Source: Halogranum gelatinilyticum
GTDB lineage: Archaea; Halobacteriota; Halobacteria; Halobacteriales; Haloferacaceae
DNA: 64,000 nt
Direction: 5' to 3'
NCBI RefSeq assembly: GCF_900103715.1
Contig: NZ_FNHL01000007.1
Location: 1 to 64,000, forward strand
Made by a program: the position numbers and the translations under genes. How positions within the stretch are numbered: position 1 is the first letter of the stretch; the number at the start of each line of letters is the position of its first letter. Shown here piece after piece: positions 5,918-64,000 of the stretch. The notes beneath the pieces were generated by a model, which saw nothing but the letters and a program-made list of their open reading frames with translations, had not been told where the DNA came from and made no database searches.

Positions 5918-7612
5918 ATGAAAGCAGCCGAGGCGGTCGTCGAGACGCTGGAGGCACTCGGCGTCGAGCGCGTCTTCGGCTATCCCGGCGGGCGCGTCAT
6001 CGAACTGTTCGACCACCTGCCGGACTCCGATATCGACCTCGTGCGCCCGCGCGACGAGCGGGAGGCGAGCGTCATGGCCGAGATGCACGGTCGCTTGACG
6101 GGCCAGCCGGGCGTCCTCTCCGGGCAGGGACCGTGGATCGGCAGTCTGGGCGTCATCGGACAGATGGAGGCGCGGCTCGCCTCGTCGCCGATGGTCGTCC
6201 TCACCGAAGCGAGCGAACGCGGCGACTACTCGACGCTCGCGCCGTACCAGCAGGCGCGCGGCGACTACGGCGGTCTCGATTTACCCAAAATTCTCGACGG
6301 CGTGACGAAGGAACACTGGTTTCCGCGGACGCCCACGGAGACCCTGCGGAGCGTCCAGCTCGCGTTCAAACACGCCGTCGCGGGGCGGCCGGGTCCGACC
6401 GCCGTCATCCTCGACGGGACCGGCGTGACCCAAGCGGTCCCCGAGGACCCGACCCCGCCGGTGTGGGACCCGGTCGAACAGACCCGGACGTGGCTCTCGC
6501 GGCCGACCGCCGAAGACGTCGCCGCCGCCGCGGAGGCACTCGCCGCCGCCGACAGGCCGGTCGTCGTCGCTGGCAACGGGGTCCACGCCGCGAAAGCGTA
6601 CGACGAACTCGCGACCGTCGCCGAGGCGTACGACGCCGTCGTCACGACCTCTTACCTGGGCAAATCCACGTTCCCCGAGACCGACGAGCGGGCGGCGGGC
6701 GTCATCGGTTCGTTCGGCCACGAGGGCGCGAATCAGGTCGTCAGCGAGGCCGATACGCTCCTCGTCGTCGGCTGTCGGATGAACCCGATGGACACCAACT
6801 GGCAGGCACCCAGCTTCATCCGGCCGGACGAGCAGACCATCGTCCACGCCGACATCGACACGCGGAACGCGGGCTGGGTCTACCCCGCGGACGTCGGTCT
6901 CATCGGCGACGCGAAGGAGTCGCTGCGGGACCTCGCCGAGGCTGGCGGCGGCGACAACGACTGGGCACTCGACCGCGCTCGCGAGGCTCGCGGGTCGTTC
7001 ACCGCGCCGGAGTGCGACTCGGACGCCGAGCCGATCCTTCCCCAGCGCGCGGTGAAGGAGATCGAAGCCGTCGTCGATAGGGAGACCATCGTCACGGCCG
7101 ACTCGGGTAACAACCGCTTTTGGCTCTTGAACTATCTCCAGACGCCAGCAGTCAGGACCTACTTCGGCAGCGGCGGCGTCGGCGGGATGGGTTGGGCAAC
7201 GCCCGCGGCGGTGTCGGCCGCGCTCGCGACGGACAAGGACGTGATCGGTGTCGCGGGCGACGGTGGCTTCGCCATGACGATGACGAGCGTCGAGACCGCC
7301 GTCGAGTACGGTGTCGCGCCGACGTTCGTCGTGCTCAACGACACGAGTCTGGGGATGGTCCGGCAGATGCAGGCTGAGAAGAACGACATCGCGGGCGTCG
7401 AGTTCCACGACACCGACTTCGTGAAAGTCGCCGAGGGCTTCGGTGCGGTTGGGCGGCGGGTGACGACGGCCGAGGGGTTAGCCGAGGCACTGCGCGAGGG
7501 GAAGGCGAGCGACCTGCCGACCGTCGTCGACGTGCGGATCGACCGCGAGCAGGACATGGCCGAGACCTTGCAGTCGTCGTTCTACGCGCAGGTGGGTGGG
7601 TTGCACGAGTGA
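5918..7612 (+). CDS. Thiamine-pyrophosphate enzyme, acetolactate synthase large-subunit-like
   Basis: 564 residues with the three-domain fold of the acetolactate synthase/pyruvate oxidase family. N-terminal PYR domain: GVERVFGYPGG and the catalytic Glu in RDEREA (about residue 47). Central domain: PVVVAGNGV. C-terminal PP domain: GDGGFAMT followed by NDTSLG, the ThDP-Mg binding GDG...N motif. No regulatory small subunit (ilvN) follows, so it may be a catabolic acetolactate synthase or another 2-oxoacid decarboxylase/carboligase. It stands alone, followed by a 359-base repeat-bearing gap. Confidence 0.85.
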   Translation: MKAAEAVVETLEALGVERVFGYPGGRVIELFDHLPDSDIDLVRPRDEREASVMAEMHGRLTGQPGVLSGQGPWIGSLGVIGQMEARLASSPMVVLTEASERGDYSTLAPYQQARGDYGGLDLPKILDGVTKEHWFPRTPTETLRSVQLAFKHAVAGRPGPTAVILDGTGVTQAVPEDPTPPVWDPVEQTRTWLSRPTAEDVAAAAEALAAADRPVVVAGNGVHAAKAYDELATVAEAYDAVVTTSYLGKSTFPETDERAAGVIGSFGHEGANQVVSEADTLLVVGCRMNPMDTNWQAPSFIRPDEQTIVHADIDTRNAGWVYPADVGLIGDAKESLRDLAEAGGGDNDWALDRAREARGSFTAPECDSDAEPILPQRAVKEIEAVVDRETIVTADSGNNRFWLLNYLQTPAVRTYFGSGGVGGMGWATPAAVSAALATDKDVIGVAGDGGFAMTMTSVETAVEYGVAPTFVVLNDTSLGMVRQMQAEKNDIAGVEFHDTDFVKVAEGFGAVGRRVTTAEGLAEALREGKASDLPTVVDVRIDREQDMAETLQSSFYAQVGGLHE

Positions 7613-7971
7613 GTGGTTTCTGAGTCTGGAAGCGAACTTTGACTCGATGTCTTTGCGACCCCGAAAGCCCACGCTCTCTCGACTCGCGCGCCTCGCTGTG
7701 CTCCTCGCCTCGTTTCACTCGGCTGCGGTGCTTGCATCGTCGTGCTTCGTCGAGAGCGCGTCCCCTTTCGGTCCCACCCGCCCGCAACAGCCACATCCTC
7801 CCCAGCCGACTCCTTCGCTCGTTGCACTCGCTCAGTCGTCCCTCGCGTGCGTGTTTCGCGGCCGACGCCGCGAAGCCACGCGCCTGGCCAGTGGTTCGGC
7901 GGGCCGAATTTGAATGATTGTTCCTGAGGGACTGAGAAACACTTTTCTCGCCGACGCGTCCTTCTCGGAGT
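7613..7971. repeat. Intergenic region with haloarchaeal intergenic repeat, copy A
   Basis: 359 bases without a credible gene. Read on the minus strand, it contains in order GGCGCGTGGCTTCGCGGC (with variation), CACGCGAGGGA and AGTCGGCTGGGGAGGATG, then a GAGTGAAACGAG-type stretch. The same blocks in the same order occur on the plus strand at about 9360-9490. The two copies are diverged and inverted relative to each other, flanking the epimerase and cupin genes. Either strand gives only Arg/Ser-rich junk translations. Confidence 0.65.
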
Positions 7972-8937
7972 ATGTCAACCGTTCTGGTAACTGGCGGAAC
8001 CGGCTTCATCGGCTCGTACGTCGCCGAGGACCTCCTCGCGCAGGGTCACGACGTCGTCGCGTACGACCTCTCGACGGACCCCAGAATCCTCGAAAAGCTC
8101 GGCATCGCCGACGACGTGGAGATCCGCCGCGGCGACGTGACCGACTCGACGGACGTCGTTCGGGCCGTTCGAGAGACCGGCGCGACCCACATCGTCCATC
8201 TCGCGGCGTTGCTGACGACGACCGCCCGCGAGAACCCGCGGCTGGCGATGCGGGTCAACATCGAGGGGACGAACAACGTCTTCGAGGCCGCCCGGACGCT
8301 CTCCGAGCAGGTCGAGCGGGTCGCGTGGGCCTCCAGTGCCGCGGTCTACGCACCCCCACGGAACTACGACGACGGCAGCGACTGGTGGGTCACCGAGGAC
8401 GACCTCGTGTATCCGGACACGCTCTACGGCGCGACGAAGGAGTACAACGAGCACCAGGCGCGGGTCTACCACGAGGATTTCGGCGTCTCACACGTCGGCC
8501 TCCGGCCGACGGTCGCCTACGGCCCCTACCGCGAGACGGGCGGCTCGGCGTTCCTCGCGAACATCGTCGAGAAGCCCGCGCTCGGCGAGTCGTTCTCCGT
8601 CGAATACGGCGACCAGGCCATCGACTGGCAGCACGTCCGCGACATCGCCCAGTCGTTCCGCTGTGCCGCGTTCGCGCCCGAAGAAGACCTCACCCAGCGC
8701 GTCTACAACGTCCGCGGCGAACTCGCGACGATTCGGGAGGCCGCCGAGACCGTCCAGAACATTCTGCCCGACGCGGACCTCACCGTCTCCGACGAGGGCG
8801 AACTGCCGTGGACCCAGAAGCTCGACATGACCAAGGCCCAGGAGGACCTCGGCTACGACCCCGAGTACGACCTCGAGACGGGCTTCCGGCAGTACATCGA
8901 CGTGCTGCGCGAGGAAGCCGGACTGGGCCCTGTCTGA
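7972..8937 (+). CDS. NAD-dependent epimerase/dehydratase (extended SDR)
   Basis: 321 residues. The N-terminal Rossmann motif GGTGFIGS (residues 8-15) binds NAD(P). The active-site pair is in YGATK, with the SSAAVY strand before it, as in UDP-sugar epimerases and dehydratases. It likely acts on a nucleotide sugar or related polyol; the substrate is not readable from sequence. It is convergent with the cupin gene, only 10 bases apart. Both genes sit between the two inverted copies of an intergenic repeat. Confidence 0.85.
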   Translation: MSTVLVTGGTGFIGSYVAEDLLAQGHDVVAYDLSTDPRILEKLGIADDVEIRRGDVTDSTDVVRAVRETGATHIVHLAALLTTTARENPRLAMRVNIEGTNNVFEAARTLSEQVERVAWASSAAVYAPPRNYDDGSDWWVTEDDLVYPDTLYGATKEYNEHQARVYHEDFGVSHVGLRPTVAYGPYRETGGSAFLANIVEKPALGESFSVEYGDQAIDWQHVRDIAQSFRCAAFAPEEDLTQRVYNVRGELATIREAAETVQNILPDADLTVSDEGELPWTQKLDMTKAQEDLGYDPEYDLETGFRQYIDVLREEAGLGPV

Positions 8938-8947
8938 TTCGACCCCG

Positions 8948-9304
8948 CTACTCCTCGACGACGACGCCGTCGTCCTTCGTCGCGGGCGCGCCGACGACGA
9001 ACACCTCGCCCGGCTCGACACAGACGAGTTGGCGAATCTCCTCGGGCGAGACGACGACGATGTCGCCGGCGACTAGCTCGTCCGTCTCGTCCTCGTAGCG
9101 CAGCTCGAACTCGCCGGAGAGGACGTGGTACAGTTCCTCCTGCTCCTCCTGGTAGTGTCGGTTCAGCCGTTCGCCCGCCTCGAACACCCAGACGTTGGGC
9201 CGCATCTGCTGGGGCCGCAGTTCCATGCCGACGGACTTGAGGTCCGCGACGCCGTCGTCGAGTTCGCGGACGTCGATCTCGTCGAGGTTTACTTTCGCGT
9301 GCAT
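8948..9304 (-). CDS. Small cupin-domain protein
   Basis: 118 residues, a single conserved beta-barrel. Cupin motif 1 is represented by HYQEEQEELYHVLSGEFEL (metal ligands His/Glu/His, with the usual glycine turn), and motif 2 by VVSPEEIRQLVC, in which the usual Pro-x-x-x-x-His is altered. Such proteins bind a metal and small ligand and serve as isomerases, dioxygenases or sensors; no function is assigned. The ATG at 9304 begins MHAKVNLDEI. Confidence 0.8.
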   Translation of the reverse strand: MHAKVNLDEIDVRELDDGVADLKSVGMELRPQQMRPNVWVFEAGERLNRHYQEEQEELYHVLSGEFELRYEDETDELVAGDIVVVSPEEIRQLVCVEPGEVFVVGAPATKDDGVVVEE

Positions 9305-9349
9305 CGGTGACGGTTCTCACAGCAGCCCGAAAAAGATGTGGCCGAATCA

Positions 9350-10196: not shown

Positions 10197-10922
10197 TTAG
10201 CGAAGCTCGTCTTTCTGGACGGTCTCGCGGCCGATGAACCGCGGCCGCTCGCCGATGGCGAGGAAGTTGTTCACGTCTTCTCTCGCTTCCTTCGCCTTCC
10301 CCTTCGCGGGGTCGTAGTCGCGCGACCCCTCGCTGCCGAGGGCGTCGTGGAGCGCGTCGAGGTCGTCGAAGTACAACTCCGCGACGCCGTCGAACTCCGC
10401 CGCCTCGGGATTCGTCGGCAACACGGTGTCGTACTTGACGACGCCTTCGATCTCCCGCGCGATGGGTGTGTGGTTGTTCTGCCAGTGGTCGACGAACTCG
10501 TCGTGGGTCATCCCCTCCTTGCGGACGAGGAACGCCGAGTGTTTGTAGAGTCCATCGGTATCGCCGTCGACCTCGTCTTTCTGGACGACGACCTCGCCGA
10601 TGAAGCGCGGGCGACGCTCGATGTCGAGGAAGTTGTCGACGTCCTCGCGGGCTTCCTTGGCCTTGCCTTTGGCGGGGTCGTAGTCACGGGAGCCTTCGCT
10701 GCCGAGGGCGTCGTGCAGCGCGTCCAAATCGTCGAAGTACAGCTCGGCGAGACCGTCGAACTCCGCCGCCGCGGGCGTCACGGGCTGGACCGTGCCGTAC
10801 TTGACAACGCCCTCGATCTCGCGGGCGATAGGGGTATGATTGGTCTGCCAGTAGTCGACAAACTCCTCGTGGCTCATGCCCTCTTTCCGGACGAGGAGGG
10901 CGATGTGTTTGTAGAGGCTCAT
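10197..10922 (-). CDS. Tandem-duplicated EthD-domain protein
   Basis: 241 residues made of two near-identical ~118-residue halves. Each starts YKH, then (A/F)LVRKEGM, WQ(T/N)NHTPIAREIEGVVKY and a long block around GSEGSRDYDPAKGKAKEARE that is identical in both halves. EthD (dimeric ferredoxin-like alpha/beta barrel) proteins normally work as dimers of one domain, so this is a fused dimer. EthD is named from ether-degradation loci; some relatives are decarboxylases or dehydratases. First gene of an operon with the HD protein. Confidence 0.85.
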   Translation of the reverse strand: MSLYKHIALLVRKEGMSHEEFVDYWQTNHTPIAREIEGVVKYGTVQPVTPAAAEFDGLAELYFDDLDALHDALGSEGSRDYDPAKGKAKEAREDVDNFLDIERRPRFIGEVVVQKDEVDGDTDGLYKHSAFLVRKEGMTHDEFVDHWQNNHTPIAREIEGVVKYDTVLPTNPEAAEFDGVAELYFDDLDALHDALGSEGSRDYDPAKGKAKEAREDVNNFLAIGERPRFIGRETVQKDELR

Positions 10923-10995
10923 TCACCGGAGAATCTCGGTTCGTACTCATAAATCATGAGGGAGAATTAAGAGACCCGGACGCGACAGGTGCGCC

Positions 10996-12270
10996 ATGAC
11001 GTTCTACGAGCGCGACTTCATGGAAGGCACCCGGGGGACGATGGCCGTCGACTGGGAGGAACGCATCGACACGAAGCGGATGCGCGAGGAGCGCAAAGAG
11101 CGCGCGCTCGAACGGATGCGGGATGCTGGATTGAGTTCGATGCTCCTCCTCTCGGACCCGAACATCCGCTACGTGACCGGCCTCGCGATGACCGGCGGCA
11201 GCGGCGCGGACCACTACTCGCTGCTCCTCGAAGACGGCTCTGTCGTCCACTGGGACACCGCCGACCACGCCTCGAACCAGCGGTTCAACTGTCCCTGGCT
11301 GACCGACATCCGCTACGCCTGCCCCGGTCTCGGCAACGTTCCGCGGGCCTCCGGCAGCCCCAGTGCCCGCAAATTCCTCCTCGACACGATGGCCGAGGGC
11401 GTCGCGAGCGCGCTCTCTGACTACGGCCTCGAGAAAGAGCCGATGGGCATCGACGTCGGCAACGCGGGCCTGCTCGACGCCCTCGAACGCCAGGGCATCG
11501 ACACCCGCACCGAGGAGTGCGCGGCCGTGATGGAAGATGCGAGAAAGGTCAAGACCAAAGACGAAATCGAGTGTCTGCGGATGGTCGCCGCCATCGCCGA
11601 GGCGGGCTTCCAGCAGGTCGTCGAGAACGCCCGGCCAGGAAGGAGAGAATCGGAGGTTTGGGGCGACGTGACCCGCGAACTGTGGCGTCACGGCGCGTTC
11701 GTCGGCGGCGGCTACCTGACCTCGGGACCGAACACGTGGCCCAAGCACCAGGCCAACACGACGGACCGGATGATTCGCCCCGGCGACCTCGTCTACGCCG
11801 ATATGTACAACATCGGCTACCTGGGCTACCGCTCCTGTTACTACCGCACCTTCTCGATGGGCGAACCCACGGAGGCGCAGCAGGACGCCTACGAACTCGC
11901 CCGCGACAACCTCTACGACGTGCTCGAACGCATCGAACCCGGCGCGACCACCGACGACGTCGCGCAGGGCTTCCCGGACATGGAAGGCGAACACGCCGAC
12001 TGGTACGACGCCGACGAGCACTGGCAGATGACCACCAACCACTGGGCGCACGGGCTCGGCCTCCAGTTGTACGAAGTCCCCCTCATCTGGCGCGGCATCT
12101 CCGAAGACCACCCCATCGAACTGGAGGAGGGGATGGTGATGGCCGTCGAGACCCAGGAGCCAGCCGAGCGGCAGGGCGTCCGCGTCGAGGAGATGGTCGT
12201 CGTCCGCGAAAACGGCGTGGAGATCCTGAGTCAGTGGCCCGTCGAGGAGATCACCGCCATCGACTACTGA
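10996..12270 (+). CDS. M24-family (pita-bread) protein, DddP/creatinase-like
   Basis: 424 residues. The N-terminal creatinase-type domain contains LLLSDPNIRYVTG; the C-terminal pita-bread domain contains SGPNTWPKH, ADMYNIGY (D269), NHWAHGLGL (H352), AVETQEP (E385) and GVRVEEM (E398). The family has five metal ligands (D, D, H, E, E). The second Asp, expected 12 residues after the first, is Cys here (C281 in YRSCYYRTF). Layout recalls DMSP lyase DddP as well as Xaa-Pro peptidases. The 57-base gap to the next gene on the same strand suggests co-transcription with the LLM flavoenzyme. Confidence 0.8.
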   Translation: MTFYERDFMEGTRGTMAVDWEERIDTKRMREERKERALERMRDAGLSSMLLLSDPNIRYVTGLAMTGGSGADHYSLLLEDGSVVHWDTADHASNQRFNCPWLTDIRYACPGLGNVPRASGSPSARKFLLDTMAEGVASALSDYGLEKEPMGIDVGNAGLLDALERQGIDTRTEECAAVMEDARKVKTKDEIECLRMVAAIAEAGFQQVVENARPGRRESEVWGDVTRELWRHGAFVGGGYLTSGPNTWPKHQANTTDRMIRPGDLVYADMYNIGYLGYRSCYYRTFSMGEPTEAQQDAYELARDNLYDVLERIEPGATTDDVAQGFPDMEGEHADWYDADEHWQMTTNHWAHGLGLQLYEVPLIWRGISEDHPIELEEGMVMAVETQEPAERQGVRVEEMVVVRENGVEILSQWPVEEITAIDY

Positions 12271-61191: not shown

Positions 61192-61233
61192 GTGAGTTCA
61201 GCGAAAACACAGCGGGAAGTAGATTTGAACTAC
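61192..61233 (-). repeat. Duplicated 3' end of initiator tRNA-Met plus trailer
   Basis: The 23 bases at 61211-61233 are identical to 61355-61377, the 3' acceptor strand and part of the T-arm of the initiator tRNA-Met gene. Homology extends into the trailer (GTGAGTTC at 61192-61199 and 61338-61345), so about 40 bases are duplicated, 144 bases apart. The copy cannot form a tRNA. Confidence 0.85.
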
Positions 61234-61286: not shown

Positions 61287-61355
61287 TATTTTCAGGAACT
61301 CTGGGGTCGCGACGCGATGAAACGCGTCGCTTGCGGTGTGAGTTCCTGAAAAATA
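61287..61355. repeat. Nested inverted repeats downstream of initiator tRNA
   Basis: Outer arms TATTTTCAGGAACTC (61287-61301) and GAGTTCCTGAAAAATA (61340-61355, one extra A). Inner arms GCGACGCG (61309-61316) and CGCGTCGC (61323-61330) with loop ATGAAA. In the transcript from the tRNA (minus strand) this forms a strong hairpin right after the 3' end. Confidence 0.7.
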
Positions 61356-61428
61356 GCGGGAAGTAGATTTGAACTACCGATCTCCGGGTTATGAGCCCGG
61401 CGGAATCTCCTGGCTATCCCATCCCGCT
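61354..61428 (-). tRNA. Initiator tRNA-Met (CAU)
   Basis: 75 nt on the minus strand. 5' AGCGGGA pairs with 3' TCCCGCT. Anticodon CAU (plus-strand ATG at 61391-61393) sits in GGGCTCATAACCC with the three GC pairs characteristic of initiator tRNAs. T-arm GTAG/TTCAAAT/CTAC, discriminator A. CCA is not encoded. The 5' AGCGGGATGGGATAGCC is the haloarchaeal initiator form, rather than elongator Met. Confidence 0.93.
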
Positions 61429-61496
61429 ATCATCACGTATCCCTCGGTTACGTATAAGGTTTGGTAAGTCGGTCTGTCCTGTCTCCCGGTACCACG

Positions 61497-62070: not shown

Positions 62071-64000
62071 ATGACGGGCACACACTCCGGGCAGGAGGAA
62101 GACGGCGAGACGGATCGACGGACGTTGTTGAAGGGAATCGCACTGGGGAGCCTCGGCACCGCGGGCATCTTCGGCGGTCTGGGAGCCGCCGACGGTACGG
62201 TGGGCGGCGCGGTCGACGACGTCGCAGGGGGTCTCCTCGGCGACGACAGTCACGACGGCCACGACAGCCACCACGTGCTGGCTCTCGTTCCGCGCGACGC
62301 CGTGACCCACACCGCGAGCGGTGGGCAGTGGGCCGACGCGACGACGTGGGGAGACGAGACACCGACCGACGGCGCGCGGGTCCACGTGCCCGCGGAGACG
62401 ACGCTCACACTCACGTCGACGACGGCGCGGCTGCAGACCCTCCGCGTCGACGGGACGCTCCGCGTCGACCCCGAGACGGCGGCGCGCCTCCTCGTCGAAA
62501 CGCTCGTCGTCACCGGCAGCGGCCGACTCGAACTCGGGAGTGAGGAGACTCCGGCACAGGACACCGTCGTCACGTTCCTCGACTCGGGAGCCATCGACGA
62601 GTCCGACGACCCCGAACGCATCGGCCGGGGCCTGCTCACCCTGCCGGGTGCGACGGTCCGGGTCCGGGGCGTCGAGAAGACATCCTTCCTCGAACTGGCG
62701 AGCGCGCCGACGAGCGGTGACGACGAACTGCGCCTCGCGGCCGAACCGACCGGTTGGACCGCCGGCGACACGGTCGTCCTCCCGGGACTCTCACCCGACC
62801 GCGACGAGGACGAGGAGCGCGAGGTCGTCGCCGTCGACGGCACGAGCGTCCGCCTCGACGAACCACTGGAGTACGACCACATCCCACCCAAGTCCAGTCT
62901 CCCGAGCTACGTCGTCAGCCTCTCGCGAACCGTCCGCTTGGCGTCCGAGAACGACCGGACGAAACGGCGCGGCCACGTGATGTTCATGAGTCGCGACGTC
63001 GACGTCGTCGGTGCGGAGTTCTCGGACCTCGGCCGGACCGACAAGTCCCGCCCCGTCACCGACCCGGCCAACGGCGTTCCCCCGAAAGACGCCGAGTCGA
63101 ACCCCCAAGCCCGCTACGCCTGTCACTTTCATCGAACTGGCCCGACCGTCGGCGACCCCCGCGTCGTCCGCGACTGTGTCGTCCGGGGCAGCCCCGGCTG
63201 GGGCTACGTCAACCACGACAGCCACGTCCGGTTCGAGGACAACGTCTCCTACCAGGTGTTCGGTGCGGGCTTCGTCGCCGAGATCGGGACCGAAGCAGGG
63301 ACGTTCAAACGGAACTTCGCGCTCCGGTCGCACGGTTCGGGTAGCGTCCCGGACGGTCGACAGTTCCGCGAAGGGGACGAAGGAGCCATCGACGACTTCG
63401 GCCATGGCGGCTACGGCTTCTGGTTTCAGGGCCCCGGCGTCGCCGTCGAGGGGAACGTCGCCGCCGGCCACCGTCACCACGGCTTCGTCTACTGGACCCG
63501 CGCCAAGCCGGACCGGGAGGTCCCCCCGGGCGAACTCGGTGGCGTCACCGGCGAGTTAGCCAACTTCCCCGTCGAGCGCATCGAGAACCAGCCCGACCTC
63601 GTCGACTCAGACGAGGTCGACGACGGCATGGTCCCGTCGAGTCTGGTGAAGTTCCGGTCGTTCCGCGACAACACCGTCTTCGCCTCCGGCGGCGGGCTCG
63701 ACATCTCGCGGCACCGCTTCGGCGCACACCACGACCGACTGGACGAGTACAGCGTCGTCGACGGATTTCTCGCATTTAACATCGGCCGCCACTACAGCCA
63801 GTGGGACCATCTCAGAGTTCCCAACAGCCGCGGTGCGCAGGGTGGCTACAACGGGGTCTCGGTCCGGTACAGCGCGAACGTCCGGATTCGAGACGCCCAC
63901 CTCGTCGCGGGCGACGGCGCGGGTCGCGGGGTCGGAATAAATCGAAATCACGCGCCGAGCAACGTCCGCGTGGAGGACTCGACGGTCGAGGGCTTCACGG
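62071..64000 (+). CDS. Tat-exported G8-domain/beta-helix protein, CEMIP-like (partial, runs off window)
   Basis: The reading frame from ATG 62071 is open to the window end (643 codons and counting), so it is truncated by the window. Tat motif RRTLLKG at residues 16-22 and a hydrophobic stretch follow. G8 domain about 85-205 begins GGQWADATTWGDETP and has VHVPAETTLTL and RLQTLRVDGTLRVDPETA. From ~340 parallel beta-helix-like coils follow, with HFHRTG at 352-357 and GVGINRNHAPSN near 620-632. This resembles CEMIP/TMEM2-type extracellular proteins, some of which depolymerise hyaluronan. A secreted polysaccharide-acting enzyme or adhesin is likely. Confidence 0.85.
   Translation, partial: MTGTHSGQEEDGETDRRTLLKGIALGSLGTAGIFGGLGAADGTVGGAVDDVAGGLLGDDSHDGHDSHHVLALVPRDAVTHTASGGQWADATTWGDETPTDGARVHVPAETTLTLTSTTARLQTLRVDGTLRVDPETAARLLVETLVVTGSGRLELGSEETPAQDTVVTFLDSGAIDESDDPERIGRGLLTLPGATVRVRGVEKTSFLELASAPTSGDDELRLAAEPTGWTAGDTVVLPGLSPDRDEDEEREVVAVDGTSVRLDEPLEYDHIPPKSSLPSYVVSLSRTVRLASENDRTKRRGHVMFMSRDVDVVGAEFSDLGRTDKSRPVTDPANGVPPKDAESNPQARYACHFHRTGPTVGDPRVVRDCVVRGSPGWGYVNHDSHVRFEDNVSYQVFGAGFVAEIGTEAGTFKRNFALRSHGSGSVPDGRQFREGDEGAIDDFGHGGYGFWFQGPGVAVEGNVAAGHRHHGFVYWTRAKPDREVPPGELGGVTGELANFPVERIENQPDLVDSDEVDDGMVPSSLVKFRSFRDNTVFASGGGLDISRHRFGAHHDRLDEYSVVDGFLAFNIGRHYSQWDHLRVPNSRGAQGGYNGVSVRYSANVRIRDAHLVAGDGAGRGVGINRNHAPSNVRVEDSTVEGFT

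Follow-up and report, generated by a model that had tools for sequence, protein, structure and literature searches.

An intact haloarchaeal gene for a homologue of the CEMIP/TMEM2 core, putatively an exported glycan-processing enzyme

The described proteins with which the present one can best be compared, TMEM2/CEMIP2 (human structure 8C6I) and CEMIP/HYBID/KIAA1199, have a G8 domain that opens a continuous right-handed beta-helix, and in the TMEM2 structure report G8 is itself described as part of that helix (PMC10206443). The literature disagrees on whether TMEM2 is an enzyme at all (PMC10206443 and PMC10276149 against PMC10474455). A GG/lectin-like domain was found essential for hyaluronan breakdown by mouse TMEM2 (chimeras) and by HYBID (PMC10276149). 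R265, D273 and D286 sit in this domain of TMEM2 and their substitution reportedly abolishes activity, and the structure paper was unable to assign an active site (PMC10206443). Our search of open-licence papers turned up none that deals with archaeal G8 proteins.

The window analysed here is a stretch of 64,000 nucleotides from Halogranum gelatinilyticum (contig NZ_FNHL01000007.1, positions 1 to 64,000), at the end of which a plus-strand reading frame starts with ATG at 62071 and reaches no stop by 64000. An earlier note on this DNA had left the frame open at that point; on the organism's own contig (C7 of genome G000, 111,339 bp) it is completed as a protein of 948 aa, with a TAG ending at the window-equivalent position 64917. 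Zero internal stops and zero frameshifts occur in the coding sequence 62071-64917, so that the decay just past the window which the earlier note had named as its refutation does not take place, and the gene is intact. Its third-position G+C of 0.86 is like that of the adjacent genes. The features are the following.

62071..64000, plus strand: coding sequence of the G8/CEMIP-core protein, 643 of 948 codons inside the window, the rest running to the stop at 64917
62071..62196, plus strand: N-terminal twin-arginine (Tat) signal region, read from the sequence, RR being residues 16-17
62344..62697, plus strand: G8 domain, residues 92-209 (PF10162, E 4.7e-13)
62974..62976, plus strand: H302, kept in 37 of 38 homologues, His in human TMEM2
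63109..63516, plus strand: CEMIP beta-helix, residues 347-482 (PF24606, E 6.6e-12; fold match 8C6I)
63112..63132, plus strand: RYxxHxH motif (R348, Y349, H352, H354), RYPVHFH in TMEM2
63214..63216, plus strand: H382, kept in 37 of 38 homologues and in TMEM2
63280..63282, plus strand: E404, kept in 37 of 38 homologues and in TMEM2

The protein has a Tat-type start (ETDRRTLLKGIALGSLGTAG), with a twin-arginine motif and then a hydrophobic segment (DRRTLLKGIALGSLG); a lipobox cysteine is absent from this signal region, and both arginines are kept without exception in the 25 haloarchaeal homologues that were aligned, in agreement with the Tat signal proposed earlier. The G8 domain of the earlier note, for which the lack of a profile match had been the other refuting outcome, is recovered by hmmscan of the full protein over positions 1-123 of the 124 of PF10162, with 49.6 bits against a curated cut-off of 22.9, and PF24606 (CEMIP_beta-hel) matches over profile positions 31-180 of 212 with 46.1 bits against a cut-off of 27.3. 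At the other end, the last ~125 residues match residues 871-988, the end, of the GH2 beta-galactosidase 6HPD (E 5.7e-6), and to judge from this alignment the C-terminal domain resembles that of a GH2 enzyme.

A family profile of 15 homologues, searched against the PDB sequences, matches one of them only, human TMEM2 8C6I, with an E of 5.8e-63. The 643 window residues (of 948) were modelled with AlphaFold together with five relatives; the model is confident over most of residues 75-475 and poor at 1-60 and 546-643, the latter stretch having a pLDDT below 50, and G8 forms the opening coils of the modelled beta-helix. The best fold match of this window part is again 8C6I (VIA-align; Z 21.3, rmsd 3.0, 411 residues), and by both profile and model G8 runs without a break into a parallel beta-helix such as that of TMEM2. 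On these two grounds the window protein is homologous to the CEMIP/TMEM2 core, and the CEMIP/TMEM2-type beta-helix proposed from the letters alone is borne out by the PF24606 match and by the first rank of 8C6I in sequence and in fold. The next fold matches are the alginate epimerase/lyase 8ja4, tailspikes, NosD of the copper maturation system (Z 19.2), AlgG and PL6 lyases, and the beta-helix adhesin PfbA is found at Z 16.1. PL6, AlgG, 8ja4 and the phage tailspike depolymerases share the right-handed parallel beta-helix with the window protein at Z 14-20, but the identity of these lyases, epimerases and tailspikes to it is only ~10%.

The homology does not extend to the whole of the animal protein. 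In the stretch that separates G8 from the remainder of the helix, the TMEM2 chain runs from 164 to 335 (~170 residues) where the family profile runs from 180 to 187, so that six profile residues stand in place of the lectin-like/GG domain. An hmmscan of the 948-aa protein gave no ILEI match up to an E of 10; a genome search with PF15711, in which no control matched, is set aside as evidence on the GG domain. As aligned, the archaeal protein is a core-only homologue from which GG/lectin-like domain 1 is absent, and the earlier likeness to CEMIP/TMEM2 thus holds for the core and not for a full CEMIP/TMEM2. The archaeal protein further differs from TMEM2/CEMIP in having no transmembrane anchor and being predicted to be exported by Tat, in its length (948 aa against a TMEM2 ectodomain of ~1270 residues) and in its C-terminal domain. 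Since the GG/lectin-like domain is absent, the label hyaluronidase does not follow. No source of hyaluronan is known in this habitat, which also counts against such an activity. Homology to the TMEM2 core could suggest that the protein degrades hyaluronan as a genuine hyaluronidase; this seems to us scarcely credible, the domain found essential for such breakdown (PMC10276149) having no counterpart here.

What the core does share with TMEM2 is a set of polar residues. In an alignment of 38 homologues (25 haloarchaeal, nine bacterial and four from IMG/VR contigs), H302, R348, Y349, H352, H354, H382 and E404 are each conserved in 37. The single exception at R348 is the copy G581b; that at the six other positions is one and the same protein, L107, which has Y, T, T, Y, I and W at H302, Y349, H352, H354, H382 and E404, respectively. 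L107 keeps most of the Gly, Trp and Asn columns, and four other columns of at least 90% conservation are also altered in it. This ORF of 861 aa, which came from the search of the phylum Nitrospirota, is a candidate natural inactive variant. Profile alignment with TMEM2 gives identical residues at the RYxxHxH, H and E positions: the equivalent stretches are GGHIM, RYPVHFH, ITVHG and FFLEDG, with H550, H552, H585 and E608 in a numbering that we derived from the construct as published, adding 82 to the chain index. In the model, the conserved residues fall on successive strands (302-305, 349-354, 377-382 and 401-403/404), as expected for a ladder stacked on one face. It is tempting, as a tentative proposal to which we give less than even weight, to take this set, which haloarchaea and bacteria share with phage-context contigs and with human TMEM2, for the active site of all G8/CEMIP proteins. 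If this were so, the GG lectin domain would be an addition for hyaluronan and the archaeal core-only protein a natural minimal enzyme; at the outer edge of the readings, the shared site would act oxidatively or depend on copper.

Two other explanations of the same residues have to be weighed. They could be structural, the beta-helix then being the scaffold of a cell-surface adhesin or glycan binder with no catalytic role, as the fold match to PfbA, the PKD, PA14, LamG and FG-GAP domains typical of large surface proteins in many homologues, and the absence of hyaluronidase activity from the human TMEM2 ectodomain in one study (PMC10206443) would allow. Yet His, Glu, Arg and Tyr, and not only Gly, Asn or hydrophobic residues, occupy the near-invariant positions, these change together in one copy in which the structural columns are mostly kept, and in another study the purified TMEM2 ectodomain cleaves hyaluronan robustly (PMC10474455), so that we regard a purely binding role as unlikely. 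The set is also rich in histidine, and its HxH, H and E could bind copper or iron in a metal-handling or redox protein, whether for metal delivery or for oxidative glycan cleavage. One homologue, in G655 (L081:508-4848), carries on its G8/CEMIP core PA14, PKD and a C-terminal halocyanin/plastocyanin-type copper domain with H, C, H and M at the usual spacing, and NosD is among the fold matches. The cupredoxin fusion is however found in one copy only and not in the close relative G614b, the likeness to NosD is at the level of fold, and the accessible text on the 3.5 A TMEM2 structure reports no transition metal (PMC10206443); we consider this explanation very improbable.

The company kept by the relatives points to glycans. 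Haloarchaeal relatives bear CBM6, CBM35, malectin, CBM5/12 and PA14 modules. The Nitrospirales MAG protein L017 and the haloarchaeal paralogues G581 and G666b are 32-36% identical to the window protein over G8 and helix and differ from it by extra LamG, PKD, FG-GAP or CBM modules (CBM6/CBM35 in G581 and G666b). In Rhodobacterales, plasmid-borne "G8 domain-containing proteins" of Ruegeria, Salipiger, Leisingera and Antarctobacter have a core 30-35% identical to that of the window protein, with the same conserved residues and likewise no lectin insert; they carry Type I secretion/RTX, PA14, LamG or cadherin-like modules where the window protein has Tat, and their genes lie mostly inside exopolysaccharide clusters whereas the window gene stands alone. 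Among six inspected alphaproteobacterial plasmid copies, several of which are close relatives and hence not independent, four lie among glycosyltransferases with sulfotransferases, GH16, Wzz/CpsD or O-antigen ligase, and a fifth is close to a glycosyltransferase gene and to one for LPS biosynthesis; no such glycan genes were seen at the inspected locus of the Croceibacterium copy. The flanks of three archaeal copies (G005, G688, G581) hold sugar-polymer genes. Several glycan genes occur at 3 of 22 haloarchaeal test loci, against two such genes at one of 20 control loci, and the flanks of the remaining archaeal loci, that of the window included, have no such gene or, at most, one weak match to an epimerase. 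Near the G005 gene, we observed a run of several sulfatase-like genes (L032:4920-12417) adjoining glycosyltransferase, flippase-like and RmlA/RmlC-like genes, all named by eye from the starts of their sequences.

At the window locus itself no glycan gene was found in the flanks, which consist of a tRNA-Met, small hypothetical genes and DUF4112, mostly divergent, and we dropped operon logic there. Neighbours shared by the five genomes G704, G501, G576, G614 and G599, among them a class V aminotransferase, were judged to reflect genomic context and not function, and UDP-sugar dehydrogenases, present in the organism's own genome and also in nearly all controls, were uninformative.

Viral contigs, so classified by IMG/VR, carry the family as well. 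L111 encodes a G8 protein (6469-9315) on the same contig as a portal (10607-12022) and a virion structural protein, and in L113 a CEMIP protein (1-1347) lies beside a holin (1954-2622); both proteins keep the RYxxHxH, H and E residues. They are possibly tailspike-like depolymerases. No INPHARED phage matched P0001 or L111, and an IMG/VR scan with P0001 gave nothing; motif scans of IMG/VR did yield copies.

Taken with the sequence and the model, we put at roughly 0.6 the probability that the window protein is an exported metal- or His/Glu-dependent depolymerase or modifier of an extracellular glycan, most likely an acidic, uronate-containing one. The earlier note had left the choice between action on extracellular glycans and an adhesin; glycan processing is now favoured and the adhesin less so, because the CBMs, the exopolysaccharide-cluster and phage contexts and the conserved His/Glu set point to the former. 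The folded protein would cross the membrane by Tat, and a candidate substrate, an acidic, uronate-containing exopolysaccharide or cell-surface glycan, would lie along the helix groove, where the seven residues on successive strands may form one catalytic or metal site; internal cleavage would yield shorter chains, possibly for the turnover of the cell's own or its neighbours' matrix. A lyase acting on uronates is slightly preferred over a hydrolase, because the best modelled fold matches other than TMEM2 are alginate lyases/epimerases and capsule depolymerases. Haloarchaea produce acidic exopolysaccharide containing glucuronic and sulfated glucuronic acid (PMC9943897), and a substrate is therefore available in principle. 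Against the depolymerase reading, invariant residues of a beta-helix can be structural, and the window gene and most haloarchaeal copies have no neighbouring glycan genes. A soluble core-only homologue that is predicted to be secreted, and that keeps the near-universal His/Glu set but not the lectin domain, makes it simple to test where catalysis is located and what the lectin domain contributes.

The family is matched in 25 of 392 sampled Halobacteriales genomes, two by the C-terminal part only. The core is thus present in 23 (~6%), which points to a putative exported glycan-processing enzyme in that share of the genomes; within the organism's own genus, one of three genomes has a PF24606 match. 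The earlier note had described CEMIP/TMEM2 as known mainly from animals and some bacteria; among archaea, the window protein is not unique. The archaeal copies fall into two types: A, to which the window protein belongs, and B, which has fewer members (G007, G177, G191) and clusters with Croceibacterium in the tree. The window protein falls inside a fully supported clade of eight. Most type-A archaeal groups, together with the Nitrospirales copy and three IMG/VR copies, meet in one unresolved fork with long branches, and for this reason we claim no direction of transfer; a recent plasmid transfer was rejected, the plasmid-borne relatives being only ~30% identical.

Some minor observations may be recorded. 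G620 has two equal-scoring G8 genes (L075 and L076) near 27-30 kb and 4.089 Mb, that is, near both ends of the 4.13 Mb contig C1, either an assembly overlap or a duplication. In the G008 copy (L084:9739-13101), a short stretch, DEVIQPDRWNAQGG, is repeated in the helix region and may be a small duplication or an assembly artefact. Upstream of the window gene, a 29-bp direct repeat (61205-61233 and 61349-61377; 93% identical, 23 bp exact) duplicates, 144 bp apart, one end of the tRNA-Met gene (61353-61429, minus strand) and resembles an att-site or integration remnant.
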